Source: Coffea arabica | Taxonomy: Eukaryota; Streptophyta; Magnoliopsida; Gentianales; Rubiaceae | DNA: 64,000 nt | Reading direction: 5' to 3' | Assembly (NCBI RefSeq): GCF_036785885.1 | Contig: NC_092312.1 | Coordinates: forward strand, 18,990,001 to 19,054,000 | In this document: in pieces, positions 22,970 to 64,000 of the stretch | Position numbering within the stretch: position 1 is the stretch's first letter | Layout: each line of letters begins with the position of its first letter | Position numbers and translations under genes: made by a program | Notes under the pieces: generated by a model | Told to the model about the DNA's origin: nothing | Database searches by the model: none | Seen by the model: only the letters and a program-made list of their open reading frames with translations

Positions 22970-25900
22970 TCACCTAGCGACGTCATGGCAACTGTTAATA
23001 GGAGGACGTCTCAATGTTGATAGAATGTCTGAGAACTGAGGACGCTTTTCCGGACAGTTATTCCAGCACTTCATCATCAGAGCCCTAAGTATTTGGGGGC
23101 AGTCCTTCGGGATATCAGGTCTAAGCCCACATGCAGCTATTCCAACGGCGGCTTGCACGGGCGAATAAGCAGAATAGGCAATCTCACCGGTAACCATTTC
23201 CCATAATACCATCCCAAAGCTATACACGTTACTCATTGATGTCTCTGTGACACCCTCTGGATCACCTGAAATGATCTGTGATGTCGAATTGCAAATTAAG
23301 TAACATCATCAACATGACTTCCATTATAATATTGACAAGAAACGAGTGCAACTCCATTCTCTTCTTGGTTTTCTTTTCTCTATAGGTCCCCATTCAATTT
23401 TCTTTGGGAAATTTCATGTCAAGAAAGATGCCTTTAGAAAAGCTTACTTTTAGATTAAATTAGTCAGGTGATCTCGAGGATCTAAAGCCCAAGCTGTTGA
23501 GTAGGAAGCTATGTTTAATTCAGCAGTTATACATGTAGGCAGCAAATCGATTCAAAAGTGTTTTTCTAGAAACTCTTAGCTTGACTAAGATTGGAAGAAG
23601 AAGAGTTTTGTCCCCAACAAACCAATCACCTTCCTCTTTCCCAGGCCCAAGAGCAATGAAACGTTAACAAGTATCGGGAAACAAATTCTACTTTGCAAAC
23701 ATTTTGTTCAAGGATATGAACTGCAGGTTCATGAAATTTAGTTAATCATTTATTTCAGTTTAATGAGGCGAGGATGTCAAAGGCCTAAAATCAAAAGTTT
23801 CAGGGTCCAAAGTAGGTTACCAGCATGGTAGGATGGAATCTAATAAACACTAGGGGAGATTATTGCCCAACACTCCCAGCCTCCACCAATGATGAGAGAG
23901 AGTAAAGCTAGATTAAAGCTACTTTACTTCTGCTTAGCTAAAGTCTTAAAGGCAAACAACCTCTTAACGTGGAAAGCAAAATTATCATGAAAACATGTTA
24001 CGCATGCACAAAACAATAATGAAGGGATAATTGACATAAAGTTCTCATTAAGTGGACAGAACCGCAAAAGCCTAACATACACTGAGTATAACTATATTCT
24101 TGAAAGAGCAACACTTGAGAACAAAAAGTTTCCATGGTAGAAATCCTTCCTTTACATGAAGAATTTTGGTTGCTGCAAGTTTTCCAAGGTAATGTTCAGC
24201 TTTAGGTACTATGAAGGGCAAGATTTTCTGTAAAGAAAGCATACTTCATTTTGTAGGCTAGTTTGTGCTTTCACTAATAAACTAACATTTTCAAACGGTC
24301 AATCAAATAGTGAAGTAAGCTACATATCAATAAATTAGAGAAGATCAGCTAATCTGGCACCACTAAGTCACAGTTCAACAACAGTTCGGCATAGGATCAA
24401 AAGGAAAGTTTGGTCCTCATCCTTACTTGAAACTACTTATTTGCTTTAGAATTTCTGCACTATCGTACTTGAACCAGAAACTGAATACCTAATCAAACCA
24501 TCAAATAAGTAGCTGGCCTTTTGAGGATACCCAACAATCAATGGAATTCTCTTGCTTCAGGAGAACAAATAATGAAAAGTATCTACAGTATACAGTGGGT
24601 TATAAGGGTCTGCAAATATGCATAAAGTCCTTTGTGGTTACTAACAAAAACATTATTTTACTTTTTCATATTTATGTTTCTGTTTTACCATTTCTCTTAT
24701 AACACGACAGTTGGACAATCTAGATTTGTAGGATGATTCCCATCTTCCACAAATTTCTCAAGACCTGTTAATAATTTGATTACAACATGAATCAACAATT
24801 AACTTGTCTATTTATATGCATGTGTTGGAGAAAAGAAAAAATAGAAAAAAAGAAAGTTAATACCATACAAACCTCAGGAGCTAGCCACCTGTAACCATCA
24901 GTTTCATACTCCATAGCCTCACCAGTACTTTTGCAAGCTGCCACTATTCCCATATCCCCCAAACAAGAATTTCCATGTTTGTCTAACAAAATCCGCTGGG
25001 TATTGAGGTCCCTATATGCTACACCATGATCATTCATGAACTTGATTCCCTCTGCTACATCAGCAGCGATCCTCATAATTTCTCTAGTATGAAGCTTCTT
25101 GTTCTTTGACATCAAATCCTGAACTGATCCGCCTTCCATCAACTTAGTCACAACACATAACCCGTGATTTTCATCAATACAAACACCATAAAAATGCAAA
25201 ATGTTCTTGTGCCCACAAGTCATTAACTCCAATATATCCTCTCGAAGCTCGAAGTCATATGCATTCCCCTTATCACATCCCTTGAGCGTCTCAATCCCAA
25301 CTCTTTTGCCCTTATAAACCCCCTTAAATGTAGTAGCCCCAATCTGATCAATAAACTCAAGATTATCAGTACTTAGTAACCACTTCCTGATCTCATTGCC
25401 TCCTGATTGCACTGTCTGCCATTCATCAACCGAAACTACAATGGAAGTAGTTGGTAAAGGCACTCGTAACTGAACCTTAGGACTGCCATTCTCAATCCCA
25501 TTTCTATAACTCTGCTCCACACAATCTTCATCCGGCTCTCCAAACTCTCTACCCCTTGCATTATCCTCCTGACAGCCGCAAAGCCCAAAGGACAGCTTCA
25601 TGGAGGTACTTTTTGGCTTCTTCAGAGCTACTTTAAGTGCACTTTCAATCTGGGTTTTGAACAATTTTTCTTGCCCAGATTGAACCAATAGCATGACAAT
25701 TCCCAATGTCAATCCCTTCCTCTCAAAGATCTGAACTTTCTTGCAACAAATGGAAGCACTATCAAGCGCACCCGACATTGCTGGCCATGAAAGTGAAGAG
25801 TTACATGCAAATGTCAGCTTGACTACTGACCCATTAGCCTCATCATCAGACACCTCTTGTGTCATTAAAGCTGGCTGGTCCTCCGTTATTGATTGCTCTA

Positions 25901-26439
25901 CCAATTTCATATGCAGAAACACATCCTTCATTTCAAATCCAGCTTGTGCATAGCTATTAAAATTGCATAAGAAACATAATTGTCAAAACAAAAGAAATGT
26001 AAACATAGGAGCAGGATATTTAACTTTAGGTTCTGAACCTGTCTGGTAGAGAATCATAATGCTTGCGAATGTTGGAAACAAGCTTTTCAGGGAGTTGACT
26101 ACCAGGATAAAGCTGAGTTAAGCTCCGTACAACAGTGGCCCAAACGTGCTTTCGGCCATTTTCACCACGACTAATCTGTGTCGACGAGGGCAGATCACGG
26201 ACCAAGTCAAGGTTAAGGGAGTTCTTGAAAGAGGCAATAGCCTCAGACACATTGCGGCTCAGCCTCTGCAGTCGCTTCTGCATTGTGGAAGAGTCTCTAA
26301 AAGCTCCTCCACTGGAGGTTGCAGGATTGGAGTTTCCTGGAGGAGCTTCGGATCTGTCCTGGGTTCTCATCAAAACTTGCTCCACCATGTCCTCATCTGC
26401 ACTAGCTCGACTAGTCCAGCATTCTAAAGCTGCAGCCAT
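22970..26439 (-). CDS. Tyrosine-kinase-like (TKL) family protein, probable pseudokinase
   Basis: Three exons: 26439-26039, 25953-24873 and 23275-22970; phases 2 and 0; 1788 nt, 595 residues. The start MAAALECWTSRASADEDMVE is the only ATG in a good context. Residues 1-330 are a conserved plant N-terminal region without a domain I can name. Residues about 331-590 are a TKL kinase fold (IGATTFKGVYKG, VTKLMEGGSVQDLM, GYRWLAPEIISGDPEG, VYSFGMVLWEMVTGE, KCWNNCPEKRPQFSDIL). Key residues are missing: the VAIK lysine is Glu355 (VGIE), HRD is YRD (447-449), the catalytic-loop Asn at D+5 is Arg454, and DFG is DMG (467-469). From memory it resembles the Arabidopsis At5g07140/At5g58520 kinase-like pair and, more distantly, plant MLKL-like proteins; that is not checked. 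A scaffold or regulatory role is inferred from the lost residues. No signal peptide or membrane segment. Confidence 0.88.
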
Positions 26440-28947
26440 GGCTTTTGGACAAGCTACCGGATCAGGGGTCAGTCAGTCCAGCCAGTAGAACTGGAACTAA
26501 AAGCCTGATGGCATCAGTATCATGGCGTAAGCATAGACATGTAAGAATTTAAAAGAAAAATTTTAGAACACGCACAGAAAAATAATAAGAACAGAATTTT
26601 TTCAGTAAAAAAATTGAATGGACATTTGGAAATACTTTTTCTGTCTTTTTGTTTTCACACTTTCTGCAAATTAGACCCCTAAAAATGATGAGCCGAAGAA
26701 TATAAAAAACAAACTCACTTTCTGTTCTACTTGCAAACCAACATAAAATTTAAATTTTAAAGGTAACAGCTCTTCTTACATGTGTATCTCAAATCTAATC
26801 AAGTCTAAAATAAGCTATTCAATAGTTGCATCAAATCAATTTGAGACATAAAAAAAAAAGATACATTCTTCAAAAATAATCGAGAATTTTTAAGAGATAC
26901 AAAAAAAAAAAAAAGCAAAACTTAGAAATCAGAAATCAAGCTCACTCACATTTACTCACTTTTCTTGAAAACATAAAGCAAAAAAGGTACCCCCACAAGT
27001 AGCTAAAACCCATGCCTTCTTTCTAATTATTTCCAAGGCAAGCAATGGAAATATATTCTCAGAAAGCTTCCAGCACAGTAAACGTGATTCAGAAAGCTTC
27101 CCACAAAGAAAATGCCAGTAACAAACAGATACAGCAGTAAAGGAAATGTGAGGATAGGGGTGGTCGACTGGTGGGCTAGAGACCGTAATACCTTTCTGCA
27201 TGTGCTTTTTTAGTGAATTAAAGCTTGAAAAAATTGACAATCCAGTGGGCTTGAGTCATTAAAGCAGCTCCTGGGATCCTTTACTCCGTCACCTAATGGG
27301 GAGGGGTGGAGGTGGTTGAGCATTGACTGAACGGACGTGGGATTGTGGGTGTACGGACCGAGATTTGAAGGAGAGTTGGGACTTGGGAGATCTGTGTGGC
27401 GAAGTTCTTGGTTTTCCTGGGAAGAGTTAACAATGGCCCAAAAACAGAGAGAGAGAGAGAGGGAAAAAGGCCAAAAAAGAAAAAGATTTGAGGGTACTTC
27501 AACAACGTCGTTTTCAGTCCAAAAGAAAGAAACAAAACATGAAATGGTTTTTGTTCAATTTTTTAAATTACTTTTTCTGGGAATTTCCAGGTGACGGGCC
27601 TGTCCTAATTATTCGATAAAGCTCTCCATTGGCCGGTTTTAAGAGGATATTAAATTCGGGTTTACATGCTGTTTTAAACTGAGCATAATAACTACAATGT
27701 CTACTAAAAAAATTCGCAATACATGCATTTTATGTTGTAGTTATGAACGCGTCTTAGATTGTGATCAAAATTGAAATTGAAGTTACTTGTCTGAATTCTT
27801 GAGGTCGGTCATCTGGATAAAATGTTTTGAGCTCAATCTTCCAAAGAAATGGCGATTGTTCATAACCGTAGGGCGATTATCTTCTCCTGGTGAAGGCTGC
27901 ATGTGATCCTTCTTGAAGAAGGTTTCAAGTTAGCATATTAGCATTAGATATTGAAACTCGTATGTCTGTTAAACCCCTTTTTCCTCTTTTTTTTTCGTGG
28001 GTAAATGTGAATGGCTGAAACCACATTGTCATTGTTTTTTATTTTTTTTCCCTTCTTTTTGGTGGGTTTTTTTTTTGGGGGAGAGGGGGGGGGGGGGATA
28101 TATATATATATATATATATGAAAATAGTTATTTTAATTAGAGTTGTCTCTTACTCATATATGACATGTCTAATTGAAGAAAATTAATGGGTAATGGGTCA
28201 TTTGGATTTTACCCATATTGAATATTATATTGTATGTTTAAAAATTATCTCTAATTTTAAAATAATTTTAAAAAATAACTAATCTTATCTTAATGATATC
28301 CAAAATAACTTTAAAAAATAACTAATCTTATGTTAATAATATATGTTTTCTATCAAATTATTACATTGAACTATACTAAAACCTTTTTCAAATCACAATT
28401 ATTAAAATCTTACATATTCCATAAATTACTTACTTTTACCACCATATCATTGATTGGTGTTCAAATTGTTCATCATATCTTCTCTTAATTTTGAATTAAC
28501 TTAGTAAAAAAAAATTAACTGTTACATCGACAGATTTACCAATATTGTTGATTTATTGATGAAAAAAGCATATTACTGGATCTTTTCTATTTAATTAAAT
28601 ATGAATATATGCTTCTAGGCTTATGGTCATTATAAAAATTTAAATTATCTAAAAGAATATTTATAAAAAATAATATCTATCAAGTTTTTGATACGAAATA
28701 CATTCTTTGATGTATAAATATAATATTATATTATAGTGAAAGTATGTAAGCAAATTATTTAAAATTAGTAAATAATTGAGCATTTAGAATACATTAATTT
28801 TTTAAAGTTAATATGAATGAACATGTAGGATTGTTGTTAATTTTAGTATTTAAATTATTCATATTTGTATAAATTCACAATAAATAAATAAAAAAAGACC
28901 ATGCTAAGGCATAGGTAAAATTCTAGTAATTGCTTACGTTAATTAAT
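26440..28947. other. Promoter side of the kinase-like gene and AT-rich DNA
   Basis: The first 100 bases should be the kinase-like gene's 5' leader. The part 27290-27430 is GC-richer, as expected near a transcription start, and a (GA)n tract sits at 27447-27463. A G-run plus (TA)n tract is at 28084-28121. From 28200 to 28900 the DNA is extremely AT-rich. No gene supported. Confidence 0.35.
28080..28121. repeat. G-run plus (TA)n tract
   Basis: A run of G residues directly followed by about ten TA units. This kind of tract is easily misread in sequencing and assembly. Confidence 0.85.
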
Positions 28948-31672: not shown

Positions 31673-34007
31673 ATGGCTGTGGTCATTCTTCTGAAGATCT
31701 TTTTCTTCTTTCTTCTCAGATTTCGTGATGCATTTGCATTGTACTTCAACCTTTTTGCAATCAGTCAATATCATACAAATCGCTTCATAAATGCTACAGG
31801 AGATGCTTATATCTCAAACCAAGGCATCCAAGTCACTCCATGACGTGTTGGGCAATAAATCAGGAAGAGCCACCTATGTTAAGCCTCCGCATTTGTGGGA
31901 CAAGGCTTCAGGAATTTTAACAGATTTCATCACTTATTTCACCTTTACCATCGACTCAGAAGGTAGCAGCAGCTATGCTGATGGACTTGCCTTCTTCTTG
32001 GCTCCTGTTAATTCCAGCTGTAGCTACAGAAGGTAGTGGCCTGGGCTTAGAGCTGGTGGTAAATGGTAATATGGCGGAAAATAACACTGCTGACCCGTTC
32101 GTTGCTGTGGAATTCGATACTTTTCCAAATTATTGGGACCGTTCCATCACCCATGTAGGCAATTGGTTCAAAGACTCCGACTCGGCCGAGTCCGAGACGA
32201 GACTGCGACGAAACATTTTCGAGATACGTGACAGGGCGAGACGTCACCATGAGGGTTGAAACGGCCGAATCACACCGAGTCACTCTAAGTCCTCCCGAGT
32301 CAACTTGAATTTTTATTATTTTTACTAATTTTTTTATTATTTTTGTTTATCATATTTTTTACAATTTTTAAAATATTAAATATTTCACAAATTCGCGTCT
32401 CGCCGAGACCGATATGTTAAAACCGATGTGGAACGGTCCAAGCCACGACCGCAATCGTGACCGCAACTTTGAACCATGGAAGGCATGAACATCAACTCCA
32501 TGAAATCTGTTAATACTACCATATGGTGGAACAACATAACGTTAGGAGCGGTAAATGATGCATGGATTAGTCAGAATGCCACTTCCAGGAATCTTGCAGT
32601 TACTTTCACTGGTTTATATGATAATAAAATCACACAAGACAGCCCAAACTATGTGGTTGATTTGAGGGTTTACTTGCCAGAATTGGCTACTTTTGGCTTC
32701 AATTCTCAGCAGCCACAGGAGCTTTGTTTGAGAAGAACAATGTCAAGTTTTGGGAATTCATTTCCAGTTTGCGAGTTGGCATGTATCGTTAAGAGCCAAC
32801 TCCAATCGCCAGTCAAATTCCAAATACAGTATTCACTCGGAAAAAGAAAAGCAAGGCAGCACTTGTCATTGGATTGAGTGTTCGTTCGCCTGTTCTAATT
32901 CTTGGATTGACTCTATTTAGTTGTGTTGGGTGGAAGAAAAGCAAGAAGAAACAGGATCATTCCCATGACCTGTTCATGGATAACGAATTCGAAAAGGGCA
33001 GCAGGCCTAAGAAGTTCACATACAATGAATTGGCACGTGCAACAAACAACTTTGACGAAGGGGAGAAGCTAGGAGAAGGGCGGTTTACAGAGGTTTCTTG
33101 GGAGATGAAAATTCGTATGAAGCAGTCAAAAAAGTCTCCAGAGGATCTAAACAAGGGCTAAAGGAGTATGCCTCAGAAGTGAAGATCATCAGTCAATTAA
33201 GGCATAGAAACTTGGTGCAACTAACTGGTTGGTGCCATGACAAGGAACAGCTACTACTAGTTTACGAGTACATGCCAAATGGCAGCTTGGATTCCCCTCT
33301 TTTCAAAGAAACTTTACAATTGAAGTGGAAATTGCGCAAGGTATGGCGTCAGTTTTGCTATACTTGCACAAAGAATGGGGACAGTGCGTGGTGCATAGGG
33401 ACATAAAATCAAGTAACGTCATGCTGGATTCCAGTTTCAATCCAAAACTTGGCGATTTCGGGTTAGCTAGACTTGTTGATCATGGAAAAGGATCGCAGAC
33501 AACAGTTTTGGCAGGAAGAATGGGGCACATGGCTCCTGAATGTGTCATCAAAGGGAAGGCTGGTAAGGAATCAGACGTTTTTAGCTTTGGAATGATAGCA
33601 CTGAAAATAGCATGCCGTAGAAGGCCGATCAATGCCAGAATACAGGAAGATCAAGTAAGAACGGTGGAGTGGGTTGGCCTGGGACCTCTATGGAAGGGGA
33701 ATGTTATTTGAAGCAATAGATCCGAAACTAAGCAGAGATTTTGATGAACAAGAAATGGAGAGATTGATGGTTGTTGCACTCTGGTGTGCTCATTCCTAAC
33801 AGTATCTGGAGGCCTTCAATTAGGCAAGCTATTCATGTACTAAACTTTGAAGCTGAAGAGCCAATTCTCCCATCGAAGATGCCAGTTCCAACATATCTTG
33901 CTCCAACCATCAATAATATAATATATTCACCGTACAGGGCCAGCAGCAATCATCTTCGAGCTACAGTTTCAATATTAATTGGAAATTCGTATGTGAAAAC
34001 ATGTTAG
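31673..34007 (+). pseudogene. L-type lectin receptor-like kinase pseudogene, full-length layout
   Basis: Starts with a signal peptide (MAVVILLKIFFFFLLRFRDA) and keeps the whole family order: legume-lectin domain (GDAYISNQGIQVTP, ATYVKPPHLWDKASG, YADGLAFFLAPVNSS, VAVEFDTFPNYWD, NINSMKSVNTTIWWNNITLG, VTFTGLYDNKITQD), membrane helix (VLILGLTLFSCVGW) and kinase (FTYNELARATNNFDEGEKLG, QLRHRNLVQLTGWCHD, VVHRDIKSSNVMLD, LGDFGLARLVDHG, MAPECVIKGKAGKESDV). It is broken by frameshifts near 31842, 32025, 32710-32790, 33090, 33345, 33690 and 33790, and a 316-base MITE sits in the lectin domain. The catalytic motifs are otherwise intact, so the decay is recent. In life these proteins are plasma-membrane receptors with an extracellular lectin domain. 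The subfamily IX-like call rests on the GWCHD and MPVPTY tail wording. Confidence 0.9.
32162..32477. mobile_element. MITE inserted in the lectin domain
   Basis: Ends ATTGGTTCAAAG and CTTTGAACCAT are inverted repeats. The flanks TGTAGGCA (32154-32161) and GGAAGGCA (32478-32485) match at 6 of 8 positions, pointing to an 8-bp (hAT-type) duplication that has diverged. Removing the element joins HVG to MNINSM, the expected lectin sequence. Inside are CG-rich ends (the 14-base palindrome GACTCGGCCGAGTC) around an AT-rich middle and no coding capacity. Confidence 0.75.
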
Positions 34008-39396: not shown

Positions 39397-41651
39397 CCGG
39401 TACTTGCTTAGATTGGTCTTCAAAATGTGGTGGTTTTGTTCACCATATGTCAAAATAGGACTGTGAATTCTTTTTGCTGCAAATAAAACGTCCTGCAGAT
39501 TGAACTCGTGAACCTTGAGCCCTCCCTGGGGGTTGGGGAAAGTGTGGAAGATGTTATATGTTACTAATTGTGTTCTGTGTAGCCATATGTCACTCATCTC
39601 TTTTGGTCAGGGACATAGACATCTTCATATATAGATTGGGTATGTCAGAAACTCTGGTTGCACCTCCATTAATGATTAATATGCCGTGTAGAAAAGTTCG
39701 ACACTAACTAAAAAGTGTTGGATCCTTGTCATAAAAGCCCAAAAACAATTCCTGTTGTTATTCAGTTTACCATTTTGTTGTGTTTCATCAGCTATCTTCA
39801 GCTGCTGCTGCTGCTGCTTGCGGCCGGCAAAACAACTTTGAACAACTTTTGTGTTTAGTTCTTTTCCACTTTTTATTTAATGGTACAGGAATTGTGGACT
39901 GTCTGAAGTGGTTGAGTTTTTGCCTAAGGATTTGGGGGAACGCATCGATGCATTTTACGCGATTTCACAATTCACAGCAGCAGCTTAGCTTGTTTTAAAG
40001 AATGAATTAGTTTTTAGCCTTTGGGTGAAAGGTAAGGGCAGGGATCTAACCTAAAAAGAATCTCTTTCTCGTGTTCTATAGGGCACTGAATTTCTTGCTT
40101 CAAGCATTCCAATCGGCTACGCAGTCACAACTTTCTTTGAAGAAAAACAATAATAGTGCCAATGCAGTAAACAAAACTTTTACTCCAATTGTCACCAACT
40201 TTCACGTCAAGCTCATATATACGTCTATTTTTTTCCCATCCCATCTGATCTGATCTGGGCGGTAAACAATAGCATTACTTCAAAACCAAACGGAAGCAAA
40301 TAAGATTTTAAAATGTGTGTGTGTATATATATATATATCTTCTCCGCCTAAAATCGGCCCCATCAAAAGGAAAAAAAAAAGGCGAAGAAGAAGATGAAGA
40401 AAAAGAGCTTCATGCTCTCATGTTTTGAAATTTTGCTCCATAACATTCGGACAGGACTTTAATTACATGCATGCATTCGTCCAAAGTATATTTTCTCTTA
40501 ATTTGTTGTTTCAGCCTCTTTATTTCTATCAGTTTCTCCTTTTTTTTTTTCCTCTGATATAATTATGAGAAAATTCTTCTTCCTTCTCCACATATACTAT
40601 CTTGTCTTGTCTTCTACATATTCTTTTGCTCCTTACAAATAGATAGTCAGTCCCCTGCAAGGCTACAAGACAATTTGTAAGGTCAAATCAAACCGGGAAT
40701 TGCATTTAGGCTTTTGTTGAAGCTGGCTTCAACTGCCAAAGCTTGCTTCATATGCGACCAATCCGTGTAAATTTTAGTCATTTACACCGTTACAGACTTT
40801 TGTTTAGCTTAAGGAGTCAACATCATTGGGTCTTCAGCAAATAAAACGTCTTTGAACCAATCGAGGCCGGCCCAGCAATTTTGACTAAACGACAGCCTCT
40901 AATCAAGCCTGCTTTGGTAAATTAAAAACCTTCCTCAATTAATTCACCATATCTCACTATTGTGCTGAAATCTATTTTATTTCACCACATATTACATACT
41001 CTGTTTTTTATTTTTTTTTCTGTTTTTAATTTTTTTTTTAAAGGTTAACTTACATTGTGCAAATGCACTCCACAGTCCATCCTTCTTCGGTTACTACTAA
41101 AATAGTAACTTTTTGTATTCCCTAACATCATTACTGTATCAATCTTCAAGGTATCTAAGTACAATGTGCCATTATTTAGTGTTAAATCCTAGATAATTAG
41201 CCTTGGCAACATGAAATTGGTACTCTCAATATTCCTAATTTGCCCATGATGCTTCGGCCGCCAATGCCACATATGCCCCTGATCCATATCGAACGGCACT
41301 TTCAGCAGAGCAACCAAGAAACAAAATAACGTTTGAGTTCGTGCACTCCTCTGATAACTACCCTTTCTCCTAGATCGTTGTGCCCTCTTCTCATGTTCCC
41401 ATCCCCCAGACAGACGCACACTCCCCATTTCTCCTACCACGCAGCCCGCTCTCAGTTTTTGCGTAGCTCAATCTGTTTTCTAAAGCAATTGAAGCTTTGT
41501 TAAGCACATGTTACAAATTCCATTTGAATTAATTTAAGAATCCCACAACACCTATATGCAGATTCTTAGTCACCTCTGCTTCTTACTAGCTTTCTGCTCT
41601 GTTCTTGAATTACGTAAGAGGGTTTTGCAGTATTTTCTGGGGTTTGTTTTG
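39397..41651. other. Intergenic, upstream of the zein-binding protein gene
   Basis: Contains a (CTG)n tract at 39797-39815 and GT/AT repeats at 40315-40338. The final 150 bases are presumably promoter and leader; a small GTAAGAGG...TTTTGCAG stretch at 41612-41630 would be a very short intron and is probably just leader. No gene supported in between. Confidence 0.35.
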
Positions 41652-42536
41652 ATGGATTCTCTTACTTGTCTTAGCTCGTACTTGAAGCAATTGAGTTGTA
41701 ATTCAGAGTTTGGATGTGGGTTTTTGATCTTTTGGAGTTATAAGCAGATTTTAAAAGTATTAGGACTGTTTCTATTATTGGGTTTTGGGCTGAAATTAAT
41801 AAAGTTCAGATTTTTATGCGATTCTGGTGGAAAGTCAGGTTCTTTGAGGAAGGGGATTTGTGAAACTCATGGTTTCGATGTGAAATGCAGTTCAAAAATT
41901 TCATCTTGCAAATTTAAGCCACTGAAGCATGTGCATGATTCAGGTTCCCCTGTAATAGACAAATTGGAAAAAACCAAGCTTTTGAATTGTGACGCTGATG
42001 GTCAGTATGAGGCCACCAATGTTTGTAGTGAAGAGTGTAATAAAGGTAATGATGATGGCGATGATGATGAAAACGAGCATTGTGATGAAGATAAGGAAGT
42101 TGATGTATTGGCACTGAGAAGATTGATCAAGGCTGAAAGGCGCAGAGCAAATTCGGCTCTGTTGGAACTTGAGAAGGAGAGAATGTCATCTGCCACAGCT
42201 GTTGAGGAATCAATGGCAATGATTTTGCGCCTGCAAAATGAGAAGAGTTTAATTGAAATGGAATCTAGGCAGTACAGAAGATTGGCTGAGGAGAAGCTGC
42301 TTTATGATGACAACGTTATTAGCTCATTGCAGTGGCTTGTAGAGAGGCATGAATCAGAAAGGGCTGTGTTGGAAGACCAGTTGAGATTATGTGAACAAAA
42401 ATTAAGGCTTTTCATGAAGAGTAATGAAATGGACGAATTCGAAGAGGTTGAGGAATCTGTAAGCTCTTCCAGCGACATTTATGAAGATGCTCTTGATTTG
42501 TTTAGTTCTATTGACATGGATTCATCGCGAGAGTAA
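41652..42536 (+). CDS. Zein-binding (DUF593/GTD-binding) membrane protein, FLOURY1/MyoB-like
   Basis: A single exon of 294 residues starting MDSLTCLSSYLKQLSCNS. An upstream in-frame ATG at 41556 would add 32 hydrophobic residues, but the chosen start gives the usual short lumenal/N-terminal piece before a membrane segment (ILKVLGLFLLLGFGLKLIKF, about residues 35-55). An acidic linker (DDGDDDENEHCDEDKEVD) precedes the zein-binding coiled coil at about 150-250, with the family signatures ALRRLIKAERRRANSALLEL, ESMAMILRLQNEKSLIEMES and RQYRRLAEEKLLYDD. Family knowledge: maize FLOURY1 sits in the ER membrane around protein bodies and binds zein, while MyoB members are myosin XI receptors on vesicles. 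The short length and N-terminal membrane helix favour the FLOURY1-like branch. The frame is intact and the gene is likely functional. Confidence 0.9.
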   Translation: MDSLTCLSSYLKQLSCNSEFGCGFLIFWSYKQILKVLGLFLLLGFGLKLIKFRFLCDSGGKSGSLRKGICETHGFDVKCSSKISSCKFKPLKHVHDSGSPVIDKLEKTKLLNCDADGQYEATNVCSEECNKGNDDGDDDENEHCDEDKEVDVLALRRLIKAERRRANSALLELEKERMSSATAVEESMAMILRLQNEKSLIEMESRQYRRLAEEKLLYDDNVISSLQWLVERHESERAVLEDQLRLCEQKLRLFMKSNEMDEFEEVEESVSSSSDIYEDALDLFSSIDMDSSRE

Positions 42537-48964: not shown

Positions 48965-49513
48965 ATGACTAGTTACATGGAGTTAAATGATACCCTCCAG
49001 ATGCTTCCACCTCCACCCGGGAGCTTCATTGATCGTGAAGAACTTATTCAACATGTTGGGGAGTTTGCTTTGTCCCAGGGATATGTTGTTACTATTAAAC
49101 AGTCTAAGAAGGACAAAGTGGTAGTGCTTGGATGTGACAGAGGAGGTGTTTATAGAAACAGACGTAAACCTGTTGATGAGTCCTCTGGTGAACTTGCTCG
49201 CAAAAGAAAAACTGGTTCACGGCTCACAAACTGTCCTTTTGAACTTGTGGGTAAGAAAGAAGATGGCTTATGGGTACTCACTGTTAAGAATGGTTCTCAC
49301 AACCATGAAGCCCTCAAGGACATATCTGAGCATCCCTCTGCTCGTCGCTTCACAGAAAAAGAAGTCATGCTAATTAAGGAGATGACAGAAGCTGGTCTGA
49401 AACCACGCCAAATTTTAAAGAGACTAAGACAAAGCAATCCAGAGCTTTTGTCAACACCAAAGCATGTTTACAATGTCAAAGCCAAGCTGCGACAAGGAAA
49501 TCTTACAGGTTGA
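48965..49513 (+). other. FAR1 DNA-binding exon (also a 182-residue open frame if unspliced)
   Basis: The domain is the WRKY-GCM1-like zinc finger shared by FAR1/FHY3 proteins and Mutator transposases: [18 protein letters not shown] gives the first Cys, [14 protein letters not shown] the second, and NGSHNHE the two His. [20 protein letters not shown] and [15 protein letters not shown] match the stretch before the transposase domain in MULE proteins. That transposase domain is missing here. Spliced, the exon ends at 49508 (phase 1) and continues into the presequence-like exon. Unspliced it stops two codons later (LTG-stop), so a short FAR1-only protein is possible. It is a domesticated transposase head by family logic; its binding site is unknown. 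Confidence 0.85.
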
Positions 49514-52500
49514 GCCTCCTGTCATACCCTTTTGCGATTTCTCACGTTTAGGACTCTTTTATTTTCTTTTTCATTCTGGATGTTGTACTGATCATTACAC
49601 CGAGTGCTCCTCTCTCTCTCTCCGCCCCTCGCATTTTTGTTACATGGTAATTTTCTTACCTGTATACTTGTTGCTTACAGTAGAAATTAGTTTGATATCT
49701 CTCTGGTTAAACTGCTACATGTCTTGTTTACTCGAAAGTTTATTTGGGTGGGAAAAGCAAAGAGTATCATATGTATATGTGTGTAGTAATCATCGAGTCA
49801 ACAACCTAGAGTTATAGGGTGTAGACTGAAGATGTATGTCCAGGGAGTTATCTTCTCAAATCAATGATGCTGTGTATTGCCGAATTACTTCTGCATAGTT
49901 AAAGTTATCTACTTTGTGCTTTAATCATGCTGCATACCTTTCAGTTTGGAGCCTCATGAGCTCAAGTGAACAGAATGAACTACAGCTCTTCAGATTGCTT
50001 GATCCTTTAAAATTCATAATGATAATTACGTACACTATACCTGCCCATTTGAATGTTAAGTTCTACTTGAGCACATTTGTTTGTCTTGATCTGCAAAGCT
50101 CCTTTGCGAGATCCTGAGCTCTGCAATTGTAGAATTTTGTTGAGAATATCAAACCTTTCTTGGTTAGTTGCCCTTGTTTTATTGCAAGATGTGGCTGACA
50201 TGTGGAGTAATCTAGTTGAGTTAGATCTGCCTAGTTAACTTGGGTTTATTTATCTTCATACTGCAGTGAGGAGATTAAAAACATTAAGACCTCAAGCATC
50301 TGTTGAGGGTAACTCTCAGCCTTCAACAACTAATGAGCCATCATGGAGGAAACGATATCCTCCGGTAAGCTTTGCACTAGTCAATCAACAATGTTGTACA
50401 ACAACCTTGAGATTTTCCTTTTTGGATGCATGAGAAATGTGTCAATTGTTATAGTTTTAGCTTATGACTGTTCTGTTGTCAAGGTTGGTTACAATGAGTT
50501 AACTGGGGCCTAAATGAGTTGATAGTTTGTTTAGTTCTGATTCATTTGTTCCATTGGATTGCATGCTTGTCTAGAATGGTATAAAAAGTTGCTTCTGTAG
50601 CTTATGCTAAATACAGGATCTTGTCTAGTCCAATTTAACATTTTGTCAAGAATCATAGTCTCACAGCGTTTTTTGCAATATTAACATGAACATATTTGCT
50701 GGTCACACAAGAATAATGTACTTAGGCAATCAATTGCAAATTTAGACTCCAAAAATTATGCAGGAATGACATTAGAAGTCCAGATTTTCTGTTCCGATGT
50801 TCCCATATCCCGTTTGTGAGTGTTTTTAACTTGTATGTCTTGGAACTATATTGTTTCATGCATATTTGTTAATGCTATAGTTTTTGAACATCATGACTTT
50901 TGTAAGTGTATATTTCATTGTGAAAGATTTGAAATTGATAACCGCTTATGTTCAAAGTACGATCGTAGGGCAATTCATTCCACAACCCACCATAATTTTC
51001 TAACTGTATATGTAGGAATAAACGTCATGAAGTTTACAACACATTCTGAATACACTGTCCAACTCAACCTCCAAATTTGATTGTTAAATAATAAGCAGCT
51101 ATATAGTTGTATATGGTAGTTCATTTACTCTGACTAATTTTTCCATTGATGCTTTGTGATTGCTCTAACATTTTGTTTCTTTTTGCCATCTCTTTTTTGT
51201 ATGATGAAGGACTTCAAAAGCCTAAAAAATTATTACACAAAAATCAACACCTGCACGAGTATTTGTTTCATGTGGAGTGATATGGTGTACTGACTTTGGG
51301 TTTTGGGCTATGCAAGCACTTATTTCTCCCCTACTTTGTTTTCTGAGTGAGTCAGCTTGGACTCGTGATTAAGCTTCACTAGTCAATTGGACGCTCTCAG
51401 ATGCCATAATGAAGCAATTTGTAGATACAAAATATGACTAACTATCAAATTGATTGTTCCGTTTAACTGTAGTCATGGTATATTGTCGTATGGATCTTTT
51501 AAGATGAACCTTTCCTACAGAAGGAAGATGATCTCTTGCTCCATCAGTTCTGCAGCCTCCTTACTTTCACTCTCTGAAAATGTTATATTTCCTGATTCCA
51601 AGTCCAAAAAAATAATATACTTCTTTTCTTGGTTCGTTCATTCTTTGTGTCTCAATTATCGAATTGCAAGTGTTCTTTCTTTGCCTGTCAATTGTCGAAG
51701 TGCAAGTGGATGTTTATAAGTTGTGCGATGTAATATACTTTACTTTGAAAAAGTAGAGGATGATGTGGGGTTAAAATATATGTTGTGATGGATTGCTTGT
51801 TTCTTGGTATGTTCTGCAGAGGGTACCTAATCTGATTGGTGGTAGGTTTGTTGACTCTCAATCATCAATATCCATTGACGTTATAAACCCTGTAAGTTCA
51901 GATAGCTCTAATCTCTCTCTCTCTCTCTCAGATTAATCAATGAATTCATCAAGAAAAGTACTTGTCTTGGGGAAAAAGGATTAGAAATTGTCTTACTAAG
52001 ATACACAGTTAATGCAGATTGCTGATGTTGTCCATTTGGCCCAATAAATTTATAGCCTCAAATTGAATTTTACCTATCATATTTACCAAGTTAGTTTGTT
52101 GCCTTTCTTATTTTTTATAGTGTTATTTATCTATGAAGTGTTGACAGGCAACACAGCAAGTGGTATCACAAGTCCCTTTGACAACTGCTGAGGAATTTAA
52201 GGCTGCTGTTTTCGCAGCAAAAAGAGCTTTTCCCTCGTGGCGGAACACACCTGTCACAACACGTCAACGCATTATGTTCAAGCTTCAAGAACTCATCCGA
52301 AGAGATGTCGTATGTTTGCTTGATTCTTTTGGATACTATCAGTTACATCATAATTTTTCGCTAACTGAGGAACGTATGTCCTTTAGGAGAAGATTGCCCT
52401 TAATATTACGACCGAGCAGGGAAAGGCGTTGAAGGATGCATATAATGATGTGGATCGTGGGCTTGGTAAGTGCATTTTCTGTCCTTGGTTCTTCATTTAG

Positions 52501-55500
52501 ATCTTGACTCAGGAGACTGTTGGACTTGAGTGGAATTTGCAGTTCCGTTGTTTAGGGTAATAAATTTTGAGGAAAGTTGGGTTTAGTAGACCTTGAATTT
52601 CTACCATTGAGATCACTCCAAAGATGGTTGGATTTCTTTGCAGTATATCTAATATTTAAGATATTGTTTTATCTTTTGGCTTCATTAACTTTTCTCAAAA
52701 GAAAATAGAAAATAATTGATTCCATTCACCTTTTGTGATATATACCAGGTGTTAAAGTGGAACGGGTAGAAAGTTTTTATTTACTTTTATTTGCTGGATT
52801 TCTTTAGCTGAAAGGTTTTTCTTCAGATTGGTGTTCAGATAAACAATATTCTTATTTGAACAGTGAGCTGTTTGCACCATAAAGTTTGAATTTTCTTCTG
52901 TAGAGGTGGTGGAACATGCTTGTGGAATGGCAACTCTGCAGATGGGCGACTTTGCATCTAATATATCTAACGGGATTGATTCTTACAGTATTAGAGAGCC
53001 TCTGGGTGTTTGTGCTGGGATTTCGCCTCACAACTTTCCCGCAATGATTCCATTATGGGTAAGCTTTTCATGTCTCTTGAATTTTGCCTGTGTAACCTAC
53101 ATCTTCTTGCTTACACTGTTCAATTGTTTGTGAACTATGGATTTATGACTGTTTCTGTTGTTTACTGTTGACTATATCCTGCAAAAATGTGAGAAAGCCT
53201 ATTTGAGATGGACAGTGTTTCCTATGTTTGTATGTTGGTTGACTGCTTCAACTATTGTTTTCAGTGTATTGCAATTCCATTGTTAATCCATGATTTTGTA
53301 TTATCTGTCTTTTACAGTGATTCTGTTCTTGTGGTTTTCAAACTTGCTGCAGATGATTCCAATTGCAGTTACATGTGGCAACACCTTCATATTGAAACCA
53401 TCAGAGAAAGCTCCAGGTAATTATGTTTTATTGCATAAACATCATAGCTGCAGCAATATAGAGGAAACCTTTTATAACTAACAACTTAAAGCTTTAAGTG
53501 GAAATGCTGGATCCATTTGTTAAAGACCTCCCTATATGATATTAGCTACCACTTTCCAGTTTCAAGCTGATTCTGAAGTGTTTGTCCCAATACTCATTGA
53601 TTGCATTTGCATTGTTTTCACATCTGTTTTCTGATTTCCCTTTCCTGTTTGAATGCATTATTGATTTTTTCTAGCTGTGCTTGGTCATAAAATTTACATT
53701 TTCTCATTTTTCAATACTGCAGGGGCTTGTATGCTACTTTCCGAACTAGCAATGGAAGCTGGTTTGCCTAATGGTGTCCTCAATATGGTTCATGGCACAA
53801 ATGTAAGATTGACTATTTTGTTAGCAGGCTGTGTTGGTTGTTTCTTGGTTTCATCAAAATCTAAAAAGAGTGAAAAAAGATTATTTGCTTCTATTTTACA
53901 CAGCAGTGGAGATATTCTGTTTTGTATTCTAATTCCACTTGTTTTATCTAAGATGCTTTTGTTTACAGCTACTACAAGTGAATTATTGTGGTTATGCCAT
54001 TTTCCTTTTCTGCAATCCCCATAACTTTATTTACATTGCCCCATTTGCTTATGTCCAGGTTGATAGTTTCTGTAGTCATGATTCATGACCATTATGTTTC
54101 TGCAATACATCATACTTCTCTTTCTGTGCAGGATATTGTCAATGCCATCTGTGATGACGAGAATATAAAAGCTGTATCTTTTGTTGGTTCAGATGCCGTG
54201 AGTTTCCTCCCAGTACTTCTTAGATGGCTACCTCCATATTCGATGTAAAAATGTTGCACTAAGTTCTTTAGCTTCAGATTTTATTCAAAAATTCTTCCCG
54301 TTTTACATATTCTAATCTGCTACAACTATGGCTGCATTCCTGTTACATGACATTGGTTTGCTTTTACCAATGTTTTCCTCACCTTCAGCTGCTTAGTGAA
54401 TTATTTGCCTAGTTATGGCCATTTTCTATGAATGTGGCTGTGAGGTTTTAAATTATTACCCTGATCTATCTGTTGTATCTGTATTTCAAGGCTGGGAGGT
54501 ACGTTCATGAAAGAGCATCAGCTAGTGGTAAACGCATTCAAGTAAGTGGGTCTTTTTTTATGCCAGTGACTGTTTTACTCCAGTCGCGGAAAAGTGTTGA
54601 AGTTGTAATCCTTTGGTTAGTCGATAATTCTTTATAGGCCAACATTGGAGCCAAGAATTTTGCAGTTGTCATGCCTGATGCAAATGTGGATGCTACTCTG
54701 AATGCTTTAGTTGCTGCTGGTTTTGGAGCTGCTGGACAAAGGTGTACGGCAGTTAGCACGGTGATTTTTGTTGGAAGGTCAAAGTTATGGTATTATTGGC
54801 TCTTGCTTTCTTCCCTTCTATGTTCATTTTTATGTTTACATGATTCATCCTCATTGCCGTCTGATCTAAATAATTGGCTTTGCATCTTATTTGGAGTTCA
54901 TCATAAATCCACTCTCATAACCACTAGGGCTAGCCCAGTAACTGCTGGTAGAATGTTAGAAGGCTGACAGGCTTGTGTATAGGGGTTTCAAATGCCTCCT
55001 CCCTCCAGTTGCCTACGTGTACCAAAGAAAAATATTCTTGCTCTTATCCAGCCTCCCGTTTTACCGAATTATGCAGGTATAGAGGGTTTTGGTCCGACTC
55101 AATCTGTAAAAGAATGGCAGAATGCTTTCCTGTCTCATATCTTTTCTATTCGAGGATCATAAGCTGAACCTAAGTTAGAATTGCAGAGCTGTCAATTCAT
55201 TTGGAGGGTCAAATAAGATACAATAACAACCTTAATTCTTGTACTTAAGACTGACACTTGTCATGACAAGTCTGAAAGTTGAGTAGAACCATATTTTTGG
55301 GAAATTGTTCATGTAAGTCCCCTTGAAGTGACCTTGAATCAGCCCCACCCCCCCCCCTTTCTTTGACCATGAATGGATGACTGTACGCTGTGAGGTATGG
55401 CTATCAGGTCACTATCACTAGCTTTTAGTTGGGCAATGCATCTAGCTTATGCAGACAATGAAGGTAAAGACTTAAAAAAGATAATATCTAAGTGCATCAC

Positions 55501-58500
55501 AAGTCATGAATCCTCCTTTATGTAGGTCCAACCGTGCAGCATACAGTGCTCAAGATGTATAAAATACTTAGTTCTATTACATTTGGCTGGTTTGATAAGA
55601 TGAAGGCAAATTACTTGGTTTGTGTTTAAGTTCTTCTATTGCCCAAAAACTATCTACATATTTGATCTGGGTAACAACTTTGGCCTGAACTGAAATGTGG
55701 AAAACCAATGGAATAGCCTACAATTAGTATTTGCACTTCGAAAGGTGTTCTTTTTTGAACTTAAAATCAAATGTCTGGTGAAGAGTAATGGACTAAAACC
55801 TTTAGGCCATGTACTTGTAGAAGATACAGTTGATGTATCGTTTATTCTTGAAAGAGCTATATCCCAGGAGATGCCACTGTTCTTGTTCTTTTGTTTTTAT
55901 TTTATATTGCTGCTTAAATTTTTTAGAACTTGTACATGTTATCATTGTTCTCCTAAAGTAAAGATCTTTGTTCTGCCGTTGCTTAAAATTTAAAGCCTAT
56001 TGAACTTAGAGAATTTTGTTTGCTCTTGCTTTTCGTGTTTTCCACCTGAGGGGACCCGCTGTAGTTGGCTGAATTTTCAGTGGATAAAACTTGGCTTACA
56101 TGTATAGTATATGTAATTTAGGTACTCCATAGCACAAACTCTTTCCATGGCTATTGAAATTTCTTTGGACTTCTAATGCTTCTAAAGTTGAATATATCAA
56201 CTTCATGGCTGTGGAAGGATCTTCATGGTGGATATTGGTGCATAATTATGATGGACAATGTGATGGCACTTCTCAGGGAAGACAAACTGGTGGAGAGGGC
56301 CAAAGCACTTAAAGTAAATGCAGGAACTGAACCTGATGCAGATGTTGGCCCAGTGATTTGCAAGCCGGTGAGCTCATATGTTGTCCATTGCATAATTTCC
56401 TCCTCCATGAATTTTGAAGAAAATAGAAATTGGGTTAAATTGAAGACTTGGAATTGACTTATGGCTTTCTTTTCCTTCACATTGATGTGCTGTTTTCCTG
56501 GCACAAGCAAGTTTTCTGTAATCCATTTATGTGGGCTTTGAGCTATCTTATTACTACTCTTTTTGACTGAGTTGTGCTTATTTGCAAGAACTGCCAAATA
56601 TCTATAGGTCAAGGAACGGATATGCAAATTGATCCAAGCTGGTGTTGATGATGGAGCCAGATTAGTTCTTGATGGGAGACAAATTGTGGTACGTGTGTAT
56701 CATTTGCTTATGTACTTGATTAGCACCAGAATGTTTGCACAACAATGTACTGTGCATATGCTGAAGGCTGAAAACAGTCTCCAATTGAAAATCTGAATTA
56801 GAAAATGAACAGAACATCTGCTTATCAAGGATCTTTGAACCTTGAGGATAGGTGGCTCATCTGGTGTCTCTCGAGCATAGAAATTTACCTTTTTGTATCA
56901 TGTTTTTCTTCTACAAGTTTCTGGAATCTGCATTTTAGAAATCCAGTGTCAATTAGGAGAATAAATCCTTGCCGAATGGAACACGGGTATTAACTTTTGG
57001 AAGCACAGTAGCTTTCTTTTTCTTAATTTCAAGGAACCAATATGAAAAGAGTAAGAGGGCATCTGAGTAATATAGTGCTCGATAATGCTTCTATTGTTTC
57101 CTTTTATTCTTCAAAAAGGCAAACTAATGACATGAAATTTTGCCCAGAGATGTAGGAATGCAGATCGTCATAGAGAGTCTCAGTTGTACCTTTGTCTGTA
57201 ATTTCAAAGAACCAATATGAAAGAGCAAGATCCGAGTAGCATAGTGTTCAGTAATTCTTCAATAGTTTCTATCAAATTATCAAGAGCAAACTGATTACAT
57301 GAAGTTTTGCAGGGTGTGTGTGTGTGTTCTGAATATGAAGAAAGTTAAAACATCTGAGCTTATAAGAACAGGCATGATTGTTAGATATGTAGAAGCATAC
57401 AAATTGGGGCTAGCATTCCTCGAGACAATATTATTGTTGTTATTGCCTCAATTTGATAGGTAATTGGGGGAAAATATTTGTTTTAGCAAGCCAACTTTTT
57501 ATGTGTTAAGACATTTTATTGTGCAGTTCTTTTCTTCCCCTCTATTTTCAGATCTATGTTGGTTTACTTATGTTTACCTTTTCCATGGATGACAAACAGG
57601 TTCCACAATTTGAGCTGGGCAATTTTATTGGTCCATCAGTCTTGTTTGATGTCACAGAGGACATGGAAATCTATAAGGTGTAATATTGCATGATTCCACC
57701 ACTTTAATTGGTCCATCAGTCTTTGTTTGTTTTTAGTGTAAAGAAAAAGAAAGAAAAAATAAGCTAATAATTTATCTTGGCCTATGCAGGAGGGAGTGTC
57801 TGGTCCAGTTCTCCTGTGTATGCAGGTTCGTCTATCATTGCTCTTATACTCCTATTTGAAGTTTTTATTTTTGTTTTTGTGGCTAAAGTTTCATTAAAAA
57901 AATGCAATTCTGTTAACATTTGTATCCCTCCCTTGGCTTTTTTCTGCAGGCCAATAGCTTAGACGAGGCCATTAACATTATCAACAGAAATAAGTAATTT
58001 TTTTTTAATAGTTTCTCTTTTTCGACTAATAGTTTCAATTCTTCAGGTCTTGCTACGAATATGTCTATTGCGTTCCTTAGTGCATTCTTCCTGTCTTATT
58101 TGAGACTCTTTATTGGAGCAGATATGGCGTTGGAGCTTCTATATTTACTGCATCTGGTGCAGCTGCAAGGAAATTCCAGGCTGAAATCGAGTCTGGGCAG
58201 GTACATGTGTTTGCCTTTTTAGATGTTGACTCTTGGGACTCTGGGAGCTTGAAAATATAAGTAGAATTTGAGGCCTGAGGAAGCTCCAAATTTGTGAAGA
58301 TAGTTTGCTCTTTCATTACAATCTCAAGTGGAAATTTATCTTCAATTTGCAAAACATTTGACTCTCAATTAACTGAAGTCAAGTCAAATTATTGAAGTAG
58401 TTGTGAAATTTTAACACTAAAAGCATATCCCTGGCCATCAGTGAAATTTCCTTTCCCTTAAAGTTTACATATACCATCACTTGACTCAGGTAGGAAATTT

Positions 58501-59091
58501 CTTTGTGTTGATTTTAAGTTATCATCAATTGACTCAGGTTGGCATAAATGTTGCGGTTCCTGCTCCATTGCCATTTGTTTCGTTCACTGGGTCCAAGGGT
58601 TCTTTTGCCGGAGATCTGAATTTCTATGGTAAACCATCATATCTTCTTTTACAGTTTGATATAATAGCTTTTACATGCTAGGTTGGAGGGTCTTGGTTCT
58701 GGGCCACCGGTAAAGAAAGCCTTTTCAACTTACAGGCAAAGCAGGAGTTCACTTCTACACACAGATCAAAACTGTGACTCAGCAGTGGAAGGATTTTCTT
58801 AATGGCGATGGGGCATCTGCAGAATTTCCGTCACAGGATCTCCTAGGGTTGACACCAACAATGCAACCACCAGATTTTCCAAGTAATGACACAGTATCTT
58901 TGGGATTAAATTCAAGGGATTTCTCAAATGGTGATGGAGCATCTCTGGGGTTGAATGACGGAGAATTTTCGAGTAGTGATGGGGAATCACTGCCAGAAAA
59001 ACATTCAAAGGATGTTATACCCAACAGTGGTGACGGAATTTCCCCAACAGTGTCACCATCGAATGGACTAAACTGGACTCTCAATTTTTAG
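48965..59091 (+). CDS. FAR1-domain / methylmalonate-semialdehyde dehydrogenase (ALDH6) fusion
   Basis: Nineteen exons, all frame-consistent: 48965-49508, 50267-50364, 51820-51891, 52148-52309, 52387-52465, 52904-53058, 53353-53416, 53723-53802, 54132-54197, 54491-54541, 54638-54789, 56277-56367, 56608-56688, 57600-57677, 57790-57825, 57950-57993, 58122-58200, 58538-58628, 58736-59091; 2379 nt, 792 residues. Residues 1-181 are a FAR1-type zinc-finger DNA-binding domain. 182-214 resemble an ALDH6 mitochondrial presequence. 215 to about 694 are ALDH6, which normally makes propionyl- or acetyl-CoA in valine and pyrimidine catabolism. Kept: [16 protein letters not shown] and the nucleophile Cys493 (GQRCTAVST). 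Altered: EEIFGPV is EGVSGPV (592-598), removing the NAD-ribose-binding Glu and Phe; GAKNH is GAKNF. The last 98 residues form a new tail with three 15-residue repeats. Exon 2 has no ATG and an in-frame stop lies upstream of it, so the ALDH part needs an upstream exon. The FAR1 exon could also be used alone by reading into its intron. Confidence 0.8.
57000..57315. repeat. Imperfect direct duplication in intron 13 of the fusion gene
   Basis: About 57027-57160 and about 57200-57312 share phrases in the same order: TTTCAA(G/A)GAACCAATATGAAA, GAGTA(A/G)(T/C)ATAGTG, CTATTGTTTC / AATAGTTTC, GCAAACT(A/G)AT and ACATGAA(A/G)TTTTGC. This is a local tandem duplication of about 170 bases that has diverged. 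Confidence 0.6.
58873..59007 (+). repeat. Three in-frame 45-bp repeats in the last coding exon
   Basis: 58873-58917, 58918-58962 and 58963-59007 encode [30 protein letters not shown] and [16 protein letters not shown] partial unit ([17 protein letters not shown]) precedes them. The repeats are acidic and rich in Ser, Gly and Asp, so they look disordered. Confidence 0.75.
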
Positions 59092-63016: not shown

Positions 63017-64000
63017 ATGAGGTTGTTGAGTTTCCGGATACTCGGTATTGCGAGTTCTCACTTCTCCACCGCCGCCGAGCCATCTTGGAGGCATCGGACT
63101 TCGCTTGTGAGATTTCACAGATACTAAGGACTATTATATATTAGTATTTCTGCACAATTATCTCTTTGTTTTTTTTTTTTTTGGATTAAAAGTAGCTCAC
63201 TGGTAATATTAGTTAAATTTTGAGTAGTTCTAATTCCTGAAATGATTGGGAATCAGCTCCGTGATCGTTAAAATATGACTAAGATAACTTCTTCTACATA
63301 TATCGTGTTTAACGAGTTTGCATACTTCTAAAAAAATATTCTGGTCTGTTGTAATAGCTTTCTTGGAGTAAATAATAAACCTGTAGCTCAACATTGGAGC
63401 ATCTTTTTTTATCATCTCTGTTATTATTCATTTTAGCCTGTAGCAAAATTTGGTTTTAAAGAAACTTGAATCGAACATTAAGGAGTGGAAGTTTGAGTTT
63501 CATTTTTCTTTTTCTTTTAACCATGTTCCTTATTATCTCTCGTAAGTCACTTTCTTCTTCTGCACTTAAGTTTATGTCTTTGTTTTCTGCGCGAAAGTAG
63601 ATGTAGATTTGCATGCGTGCAATAAATTGTGCTCATTGTGAATAAACTTGTTTTGAGTGTACCAGAGGATTCCGAACTTGATTGGTGGCAGTTTTGTAGA
63701 TTCACAAGCGTCAGAATCAGTTGATGTCATGAACCCCGTGAGTCCTTGGAACAGCAGTTTCATTTCTTCTTTTAAATATATGGGGCAGTCATTTATTTTC
63801 TCTGTGCTGTCGTCATAGGCAACCCAAGAAGTGGTTTCTCAAATACCATTAACTACAAGAGAGGAGTTTAAATCAGCTGTAGCAGCAGCCAAAGAGACCT
63901 TTCCTTCATGGCGTAATACCCCAATTACAACTCGACAACGGATTATGTTCAAACTTCAAGATCTTATCCGAAAAAATATGGCAAGATTTGTAAATTCTTC
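63017..64000 (+). CDS. Methylmalonate-semialdehyde dehydrogenase (ALDH6), 5' part, mitochondrial
   Basis: Three exons before the window ends: 63017-63106, 63666-63737 and 63819-63980 (90, 72 and 162 nt, all phase 0). The first encodes a typical mitochondrial presequence (MRLLSFRILGIASSHFSTAA then EPSWRHRTSL: basic, Ser-rich, with an HFSTAA cleavage-type site). Then RIPNLIGGSFVDSQ, ATQEVVSQIPLTTREEF and [20 protein letters not shown] follow the ALDH6 N-terminus closely. Exons 2 and 3 have exactly the lengths and phases of exons 3 and 4 in the upstream fusion gene, so this is its tandem paralogue and the likely housekeeping copy for valine and pyrimidine breakdown in the mitochondrial matrix. 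After ATG at 63980 the intron begins GCAAGA, a GC donor rather than GT. The rest of the gene is outside the window. Confidence 0.88.

Follow-up and report, generated by a model that had tools for sequence, protein, structure and literature searches.

A FAR1-like exon joined in frame to a duplicated ALDH6 gene in Coffea arabica: a candidate nuclear regulator derived from a metabolic enzyme

Bacterial PutA carries a DNA-binding part and an aldehyde dehydrogenase (ALDH) part in one polypeptide. Among plants, the BZR1-BAM proteins (BAM7 and BAM8 in Arabidopsis) are a documented precedent for a metabolic enzyme turned DNA-binding regulator; a DNA-binding domain stands before a non-enzymatic beta-amylase domain, and the proteins are nuclear regulators whose amylase-like part was suggested to be a metabolite sensor (PMC6394054). 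Here we describe a gene of Coffea arabica in which a FAR1-like exon is joined in one frame to a domain of ALDH6, the methylmalonate-semialdehyde dehydrogenase (MMSDH) of mitochondria. The gene lies in a stretch of 64,000 nucleotides, C3:18990001-19054000, referred to below as the window, and the assembly searched comprises 1.198 Gb in 131 contigs. Like BZR1-BAM, the window gene places a plant DNA-binding domain N-terminal to a metabolic-enzyme fold within one frame. The two differ in the parts joined, which are a BZR1 domain and beta-amylase there and a FAR1-like domain and Aldedh here; BZR1-BAM is found in most flowering plants, and its nuclear location and regulation were demonstrated, whereas those of the fusion are proposed. 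PutA differs from the fusion in its unrelated DNA-binding fold, its extra proline dehydrogenase, and its bacterial origin.

The window gene shares with the FAR1/FHY3/FRS proteins and with FAR1-type Mutator-like elements (MULEs) a Cys-Cys-His-X-His domain followed by a basic stretch, but it scores below the Pfam FAR1 cut-off and has no MULE transposase or SWIM match; Aldedh, FAR1, and AFT were the only Pfam matches up to E 0.1. FAR1/FRS proteins contain MULE transposase and SWIM domains, although not in every member. The features shared with ALDH6/MMSDH (TIGR01722, e.g. plant ALDH6B2) are a domain over the cut-off, the exon plan of the ordinary gene, and the catalytic Cys. The fusion differs from it in having no transit-peptide start, a FAR1-like exon ahead of the domain, a longer tail, and altered EIFGPV and PFNFP stretches.

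Structure of the window gene

Spliced alignment gave a gene of 19 exons over 48965-59091 on the plus strand, with a stop-free coding sequence of 2379 nt for 792 aa. The score of the aligner was 3845 at the locus, versus 44, 44, and 56 on three control sequences. The gene is composed as follows.

48965..49508, plus strand: exon 1, 544 nt, with the start codon, the FAR1-like domain (about residues 20-118), and then the stretch 119-181; ends in phase 1
49509..50266, plus strand: intron 1, 758 nt
50267..50364, plus strand: exon 2, the linker, which restores the frame; its homologue in the ordinary ALDH6 gene is the transit-peptide exon
51820..58628, plus strand: exons 3-18, the ALDH6 (MMSDH-type) domain
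51820-51891, 52148-52309, 52387-52465, 52904-53058, 53353-53416, 53723-53802, 54132-54197, 54491-54541, plus strand: exons 3-10
54638-54789, 56277-56367, 56608-56688, 57600-57677, 57790-57825, 57950-57993, 58122-58200, 58538-58628, plus strand: exons 11-18
58736..59091, plus strand: exon 19, the end of the ALDH domain, a tail of 99 residues, and the stop codon

The initial annotation had read this locus as an in-frame chimera in which exon 1 ends at a phase 1 GT donor at 49508, the frame is restored at 50267, and the ALDH side has no start of its own, and all of this was recovered. The donor (exon end AG, intron start GTTGAG) and its phase were re-derived from the splice sites, and the spliced alignment reproduced the same 19 in-frame exons without a stop. 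Reading back from exon 2, an in-frame TAA is met at 50236 with no ATG in between, and of the 16 ATGs in intron 1 the eight in frame with exon 2 all run into a stop. The allele on C4 likewise carries a stop-free 792-aa frame. Since the pairs on C3/C4 and on C13/C14 (see below) are near-identical, the assembly was read as two phased haplotypes. That a FAR1-like exon is fused to an ALDH6 domain is thus confirmed at the level of the gene model, with the frame intact on both haplotypes. The joined transcript would be produced, and the fused protein is very probably made.

A splice-acceptor-like AG, seen by eye directly 5' of exon 1, suggests that the window gene has a further intron in its 5' untranslated region. 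Intron 9 of the C4 allele contains a Copia-like retrotransposon of ~5.04 kb, whose 249-bp ends are identical and which has a 6-bp target duplication; its presence on the C4 haplotype only indicates a recent insertion.

A second fusion gene and the adjoining ALDH6 gene

Exons 1 and 2 were compared with the whole genome in a search that scored the best candidates only. The eight matches listed were two alleles for each exon, a pair of strong exon 1 matches on C13 and C14 (71% identity), and a weak pair on C5 and C6 (39%). On C13 and on C14, the FAR1 exon is followed by ALDH6 exons arranged as in the window gene. Because a second FAR1+ALDH6 gene (fusion 2) is present in the same genome, the fusion is not a one-off. 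The junction of fusion 2 is in phase 1 as in the window gene, and exons 4-18 have equal lengths (15/15) in both fusions and the ordinary ALDH6 gene. For exon 2 of fusion 2, the aligner chose a length of 104 nt and the manual choice was 83 nt; the frame is kept either way. The two fusions are 68% identical in the FAR1 exon and 69% identical in the ALDH domain, and the frames are open through all 19 exons in 4/4 allele copies. A chance open frame was ruled out, since the paralogous gene retains the junction phase and the exon plan. As read from the two genes, the fusion is old and kept, and not a local accident.

The protein of fusion 2 is 1052 aa on C13 and 959 aa on C14, where a stop codon in the last exon removes the final 93 residues of the tail. 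A partial 3' copy of fusion 2 with stops in its tail was seen on C13 near 10.122 Mb and, among the matches listed, on C13 only. When one neighbouring gene of the window, the open reading frame at 41538-42536, was tried for synteny, it gave 17 matches, none of which was near the C13/C14 locus.

An ordinary ALDH6 gene lies just downstream of the window gene; it encodes 527 aa and is open on both haplotypes.

63017-63106, 63666-63737, 63819-63980, plus strand: first three coding exons of the ordinary ALDH6 gene, exon 1 being the transit-peptide-like start; the gene continues beyond the window

The first coding exon of this gene is transit-peptide-like (MRLLSFRILGIASSHFSTAAEPSWRHRTSL), and a likely splice acceptor was noticed by eye 8 nt 5' of its ATG. 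Exon 2 of the fusion aligns with this exon. In the window gene the homologous exon is without a start codon and is placed after the FAR1-like exon, and the product accordingly does not begin with a mitochondrial transit peptide. From the homology of the two exons it follows that the FAR1 exon took the place of the start codon and the transit peptide. A retro-copied ALDH was ruled out, because exons 4-18 retain their lengths and introns (15/15). The label of a metabolic ALDH, first attached to the window gene, suits the neighbour better, since the ALDH half arose as a copy of that adjoining gene, has no transit-peptide start, and is altered at NAD- and substrate-site positions.

A tree of the ALDH parts was built from the three plant genes, the human protein, and 14 of 80 bacterial relatives, which themselves were the best conserved among 593 confirmed candidates and came mostly from Pseudomonadota. 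The two fusions were sisters with a support of 95/79, and their branches were 0.26 and 0.34 long versus 0.045 for the ordinary gene. The case for a putative single fusion event with later duplication rests more on the shared exon and junction than on this tree. In the course of events that we propose, the mitochondrial ALDH6 gene would have been duplicated in tandem, and a FAR1-like exon of the Mutator-like element kind would have been spliced to the acceptor of the duplicate's first coding exon, replacing the start codon and the transit peptide. The fused gene would later have been copied to a second chromosome, both copies being retained.

Long ALDH6 proteins in other plants

ALDH6 lengths were taken from published surveys of five species. 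The lengths listed are 539, 571, and 1031 aa in grape (PMC3280228), 542, 542, 713, and 958 aa in poplar (PMC4409362), 539, 825, 1072, 539, 705, and 1134 aa in upland cotton (PMC5425181), 1043 and 537 aa in melon (PMC11510909), and 510 and 483 aa in liquorice (PMC11900305). In these tables, at least one ALDH6 above 700 aa is found in 4/5 species (grape, poplar, cotton, and melon; tabulated range 705-1134 aa). The 705-825 aa ALDH6 of poplar and cotton has a locus number next to that of an ordinary ALDH6, as here (PMC4409362, PMC5425181). The ~1000-aa type was predicted to be nuclear in 4/4 entries with a prediction (PMC4409362, PMC11510909, PMC5425181). Among the grape ALDH6 genes, the first and last exons differ between members (PMC3280228), and these are the places of the FAR1 exon and the tail in the coffee genes. 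In soybean the longest ALDH listed is an ALDH18 of 756 aa, which means that no ~1000-aa ALDH6 is listed there (PMC5501352), and one ALDH6 is listed in tomato (PMC5068750).

The genes in question, ALDH6B5 and 6B7 of grape and poplar, 6B2 and 6B3 of cotton, and 6B1 of melon, resemble the coffee fusions in their unusual ALDH6 length and, in poplar and cotton, in their tandem arrangement with an ordinary ALDH6. They differ in that FAR1 is unnamed in the texts and in that the second member of the grape tandem pair, VvALDH6B5, is listed at only 571 aa (PMC3280228). Orthology is drawn from length and position, and on this basis the published genes are probably the same two fusion genes. The locus numbers of the grape tandem pair, GSVIVG01000336001 and GSVIVG01000338001, skip one (PMC3280228, Table 1), and the skipped gene model might, as a guess, be a separately annotated FAR1 exon.

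The word FAR1 was absent from the main text of all 10 ALDH surveys searched (PMC3280228, PMC4409362, PMC8440639, PMC5501352, PMC11901046, PMC5068750, PMC13273040, PMC11510909, PMC11900305, PMC5425181). No description of a FAR1-ALDH fusion was found in the openly accessible literature, judged from listings and, for PMC11471491 and PMC9818467, from passages of text, subscription papers being outside this scope. Both parts are of known kinds, and their combination is undescribed as far as the literature was searched. Whether the fusion is shared or already described had been left as a question by the initial annotation; it can now be answered in part with a second fusion gene in this genome and with the long ALDH6 members tabulated in four other eudicots, the latter linked to the coffee genes by length and position.

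Constraint, cofactor sites, and putative function

Between the two fusions, the FAR1 exon showed a dN of 0.238 and a dS of 1.293, that is, a dN/dS of 0.18 over 176 comparable codons, and the ALDH part a dN/dS of 0.16 over 480 codons, with dS near saturation. Allele comparisons showed no amino-acid change in the FAR1 domain proper (residues 20-118) of either gene, with four and one synonymous changes, respectively; the whole FAR1 exon of fusion 2 had five nonsynonymous changes and one synonymous change. By these rates, both domains are under constraint. Both fusions retain the Cys-Cys-His-X-His pattern. FAR1 domains from this genome were made into a profile of 12 rows (10 good ones and two six-residue misreadings of minus-strand loci); in a single comparison with the paired fusion exons it gave E 2.9e-5 and a probability of 73.6, which supports the FAR1 assignment. 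Basic clusters of the nuclear-signal kind are present in both fusions and absent from the ordinary gene. The tail is 99 residues long in the window gene, 366 in fusion 2, and 18 in the ordinary gene. That of the window gene consists of 21% Ser+Thr, 15% Asp+Glu, and 3% Lys+Arg and had no lag above the 95th percentile of the shuffles; the tail of fusion 2 had a period of 17 residues (best lags 17, 34, and 51) at the edge of 300 shuffles (-0.338 vs a 95th percentile of -0.336).

With TIGR01722, the ALDH part of the window gene scored 664.5 bits (ordinary gene 749.9, cut-off 448.5), and the fusion matched Pfam Aldedh at E 4e-134. Changes were counted at the 224 columns that are conserved in human and in at least 95% of the 80 bacterial relatives. 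The ordinary gene had 18 changes, the window gene 35, and fusion 2 45, the catalytic Cys being kept. At the 206 columns where the ordinary gene also agrees, 22 and 33 changes were found in the two fusions, and eight of these columns were changed in both versus 3.5 expected (P 0.012). The EIFGPV stretch reads KEGVSGPV in the window gene, where Glu and Phe are lost (E593G, F595S); these we take to be NAD-holding residues in ALDHs. Fusion 2 retains the stretch as EMFGPV. Both fusions are altered at pocket-like positions, for example at the first Phe of PFNFP.

In the mechanism that we propose, the FAR1-like domain would bind DNA in the nucleus, the ALDH6 fold, having retained its catalytic Cys but with an altered NAD/substrate pocket, would sense NAD(H), CoA, or a semialdehyde and/or form oligomers, and the long tail would bind partners. 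The product is probably a nuclear DNA-binding regulator. The ALDH part could be a ligand sensor, although we lean slightly against this. By analogy, the working principle would be the same as that of the BZR1-BAM regulators. Taken as a whole, a fused tandem ALDH6 duplicate that was later copied and that encodes a nuclear DNA-binding regulator with an ALDH6 sensor or scaffold is the reading that we favour by a small measure.

Several results weigh against this reading. In the approximately unbiased test, neither of the two alternative groupings of the ALDH tree is rejected (p 0.198 and 0.192). The Pfam FAR1 scores of the window gene and fusion 2, 17.6 and 22.0 bits, are both below the cut-off of 28.1. 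The linker and the tail are weakly constrained (dN/dS 0.52 and 0.74), and between alleles the ALDH part of the window gene has five nonsynonymous and four synonymous changes vs zero and eight in the ordinary gene. Of the shorter, tandem ALDH6 type in other plants, 1/3 was predicted to be nuclear (poplar nuclear, cotton A mitochondrial, cotton D cytoplasmic; PMC4409362, PMC5425181). Finally, neither fusion has lost the catalytic Cys stretch GQRC or the Arg of RGLEV, and catalysis may therefore persist.

This last point speaks for a DNA-tethered active enzyme, which would make propionyl- or acetyl-CoA and NADH near chromatin and feed histone acylation, as does an ALDH part over the MMSDH cut-off. 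Such an enzyme is nevertheless unlikely given that the window gene has lost Glu and Phe from EIFGPV and that pocket-like positions are altered in both fusions. We also doubt that the ALDH fold is a scaffold only, that is, a platform for oligomers through which the DNA-binding part becomes multivalent, with no sensing. ALDHs assemble as dimers or tetramers, and the fold is well kept (by its Aldedh match) while active-site positions drift; however, the catalytic Cys and neighbouring residues are kept, though a scaffold would need no such conservation. It is very unlikely that the locus holds two transcription units, a FAR1-only protein translated with intron 1 retained and an internally started ALDH transcript never joined to it. 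With intron 1 retained, the frame ends cleanly at a stop after 182 aa, in-frame Met codons occur in exon 2 of fusion 2, and the tabulated length of grape VvALDH6B5 is too short for a FAR1 part. On the other hand, the first Met past the junction in the window gene is residue 281, inside the ALDH domain, the junction phase is common to both fusions, neither AATAAA nor ATTAAA is present within intron 1, and the published frames of 705-1134 aa exceed an ALDH-only product with a short tail, although long tails could explain part of this length. A decaying, functionless pseudogene pair would fit the longer branches, the truncated tail of one fusion 2 allele, and the nonsynonymous excess between window-gene alleles, but is highly improbable with all 19 exons open in every allele copy, a dN/dS of 0.16-0.18, and a Ka/Ks of 0.116 at a Ks of 1.627 for poplar PtALDH6B5/6B7 (PMC4409362).

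The putative FAR1+ALDH6 regulator, derived from a metabolic enzyme, may belong to a kind of gene regulator that has been overlooked. More tentatively, and with some doubt on our side, core eudicots would hold an old two-member family of such regulators that has been surveyed as plain MMSDH; its pocket would read a semialdehyde, CoA, or NADH arising from the breakdown of valine or pyrimidines and so link amino-acid breakdown in mitochondria to transcription. If the regulator reading is true, it would be a second independent case beside BZR1-BAM, with another enzyme and a transposon-type DNA-binding domain, and would suggest that metabolite-sensing transcription factors have arisen along this route more than once. 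Among the published "stress-responsive ALDH6" genes, some may then be regulators and not detoxifying enzymes, and the fusions would offer a direct test of how the nucleus could read branched-chain amino acid breakdown.

Among the matches listed, the nearest other relative of the FAR1 exon was the decayed C5/C6 pair, followed by a MULE transposase-like stretch recognized by eye. The FAR1 exon had no match among Protein Data Bank (PDB) sequences up to E 1, and of 94 pattern matches in viral contigs obtained with the two FAR1 exons none was confirmed. About 30 of the 150 FAR1 matches listed in the genome lie within open frames of 733 aa with near-equal scores on many contigs, and these look like a recently active FAR1-type Mutator-like family. 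Other frames in the window, at 24792-26472 (minus strand), 32473-33711 (plus strand), and 41538-42536 (plus strand), were assigned by eye to kinase-like proteins, one with a lectin-like part upstream, and to a coiled-coil protein of the GTD-binding type.

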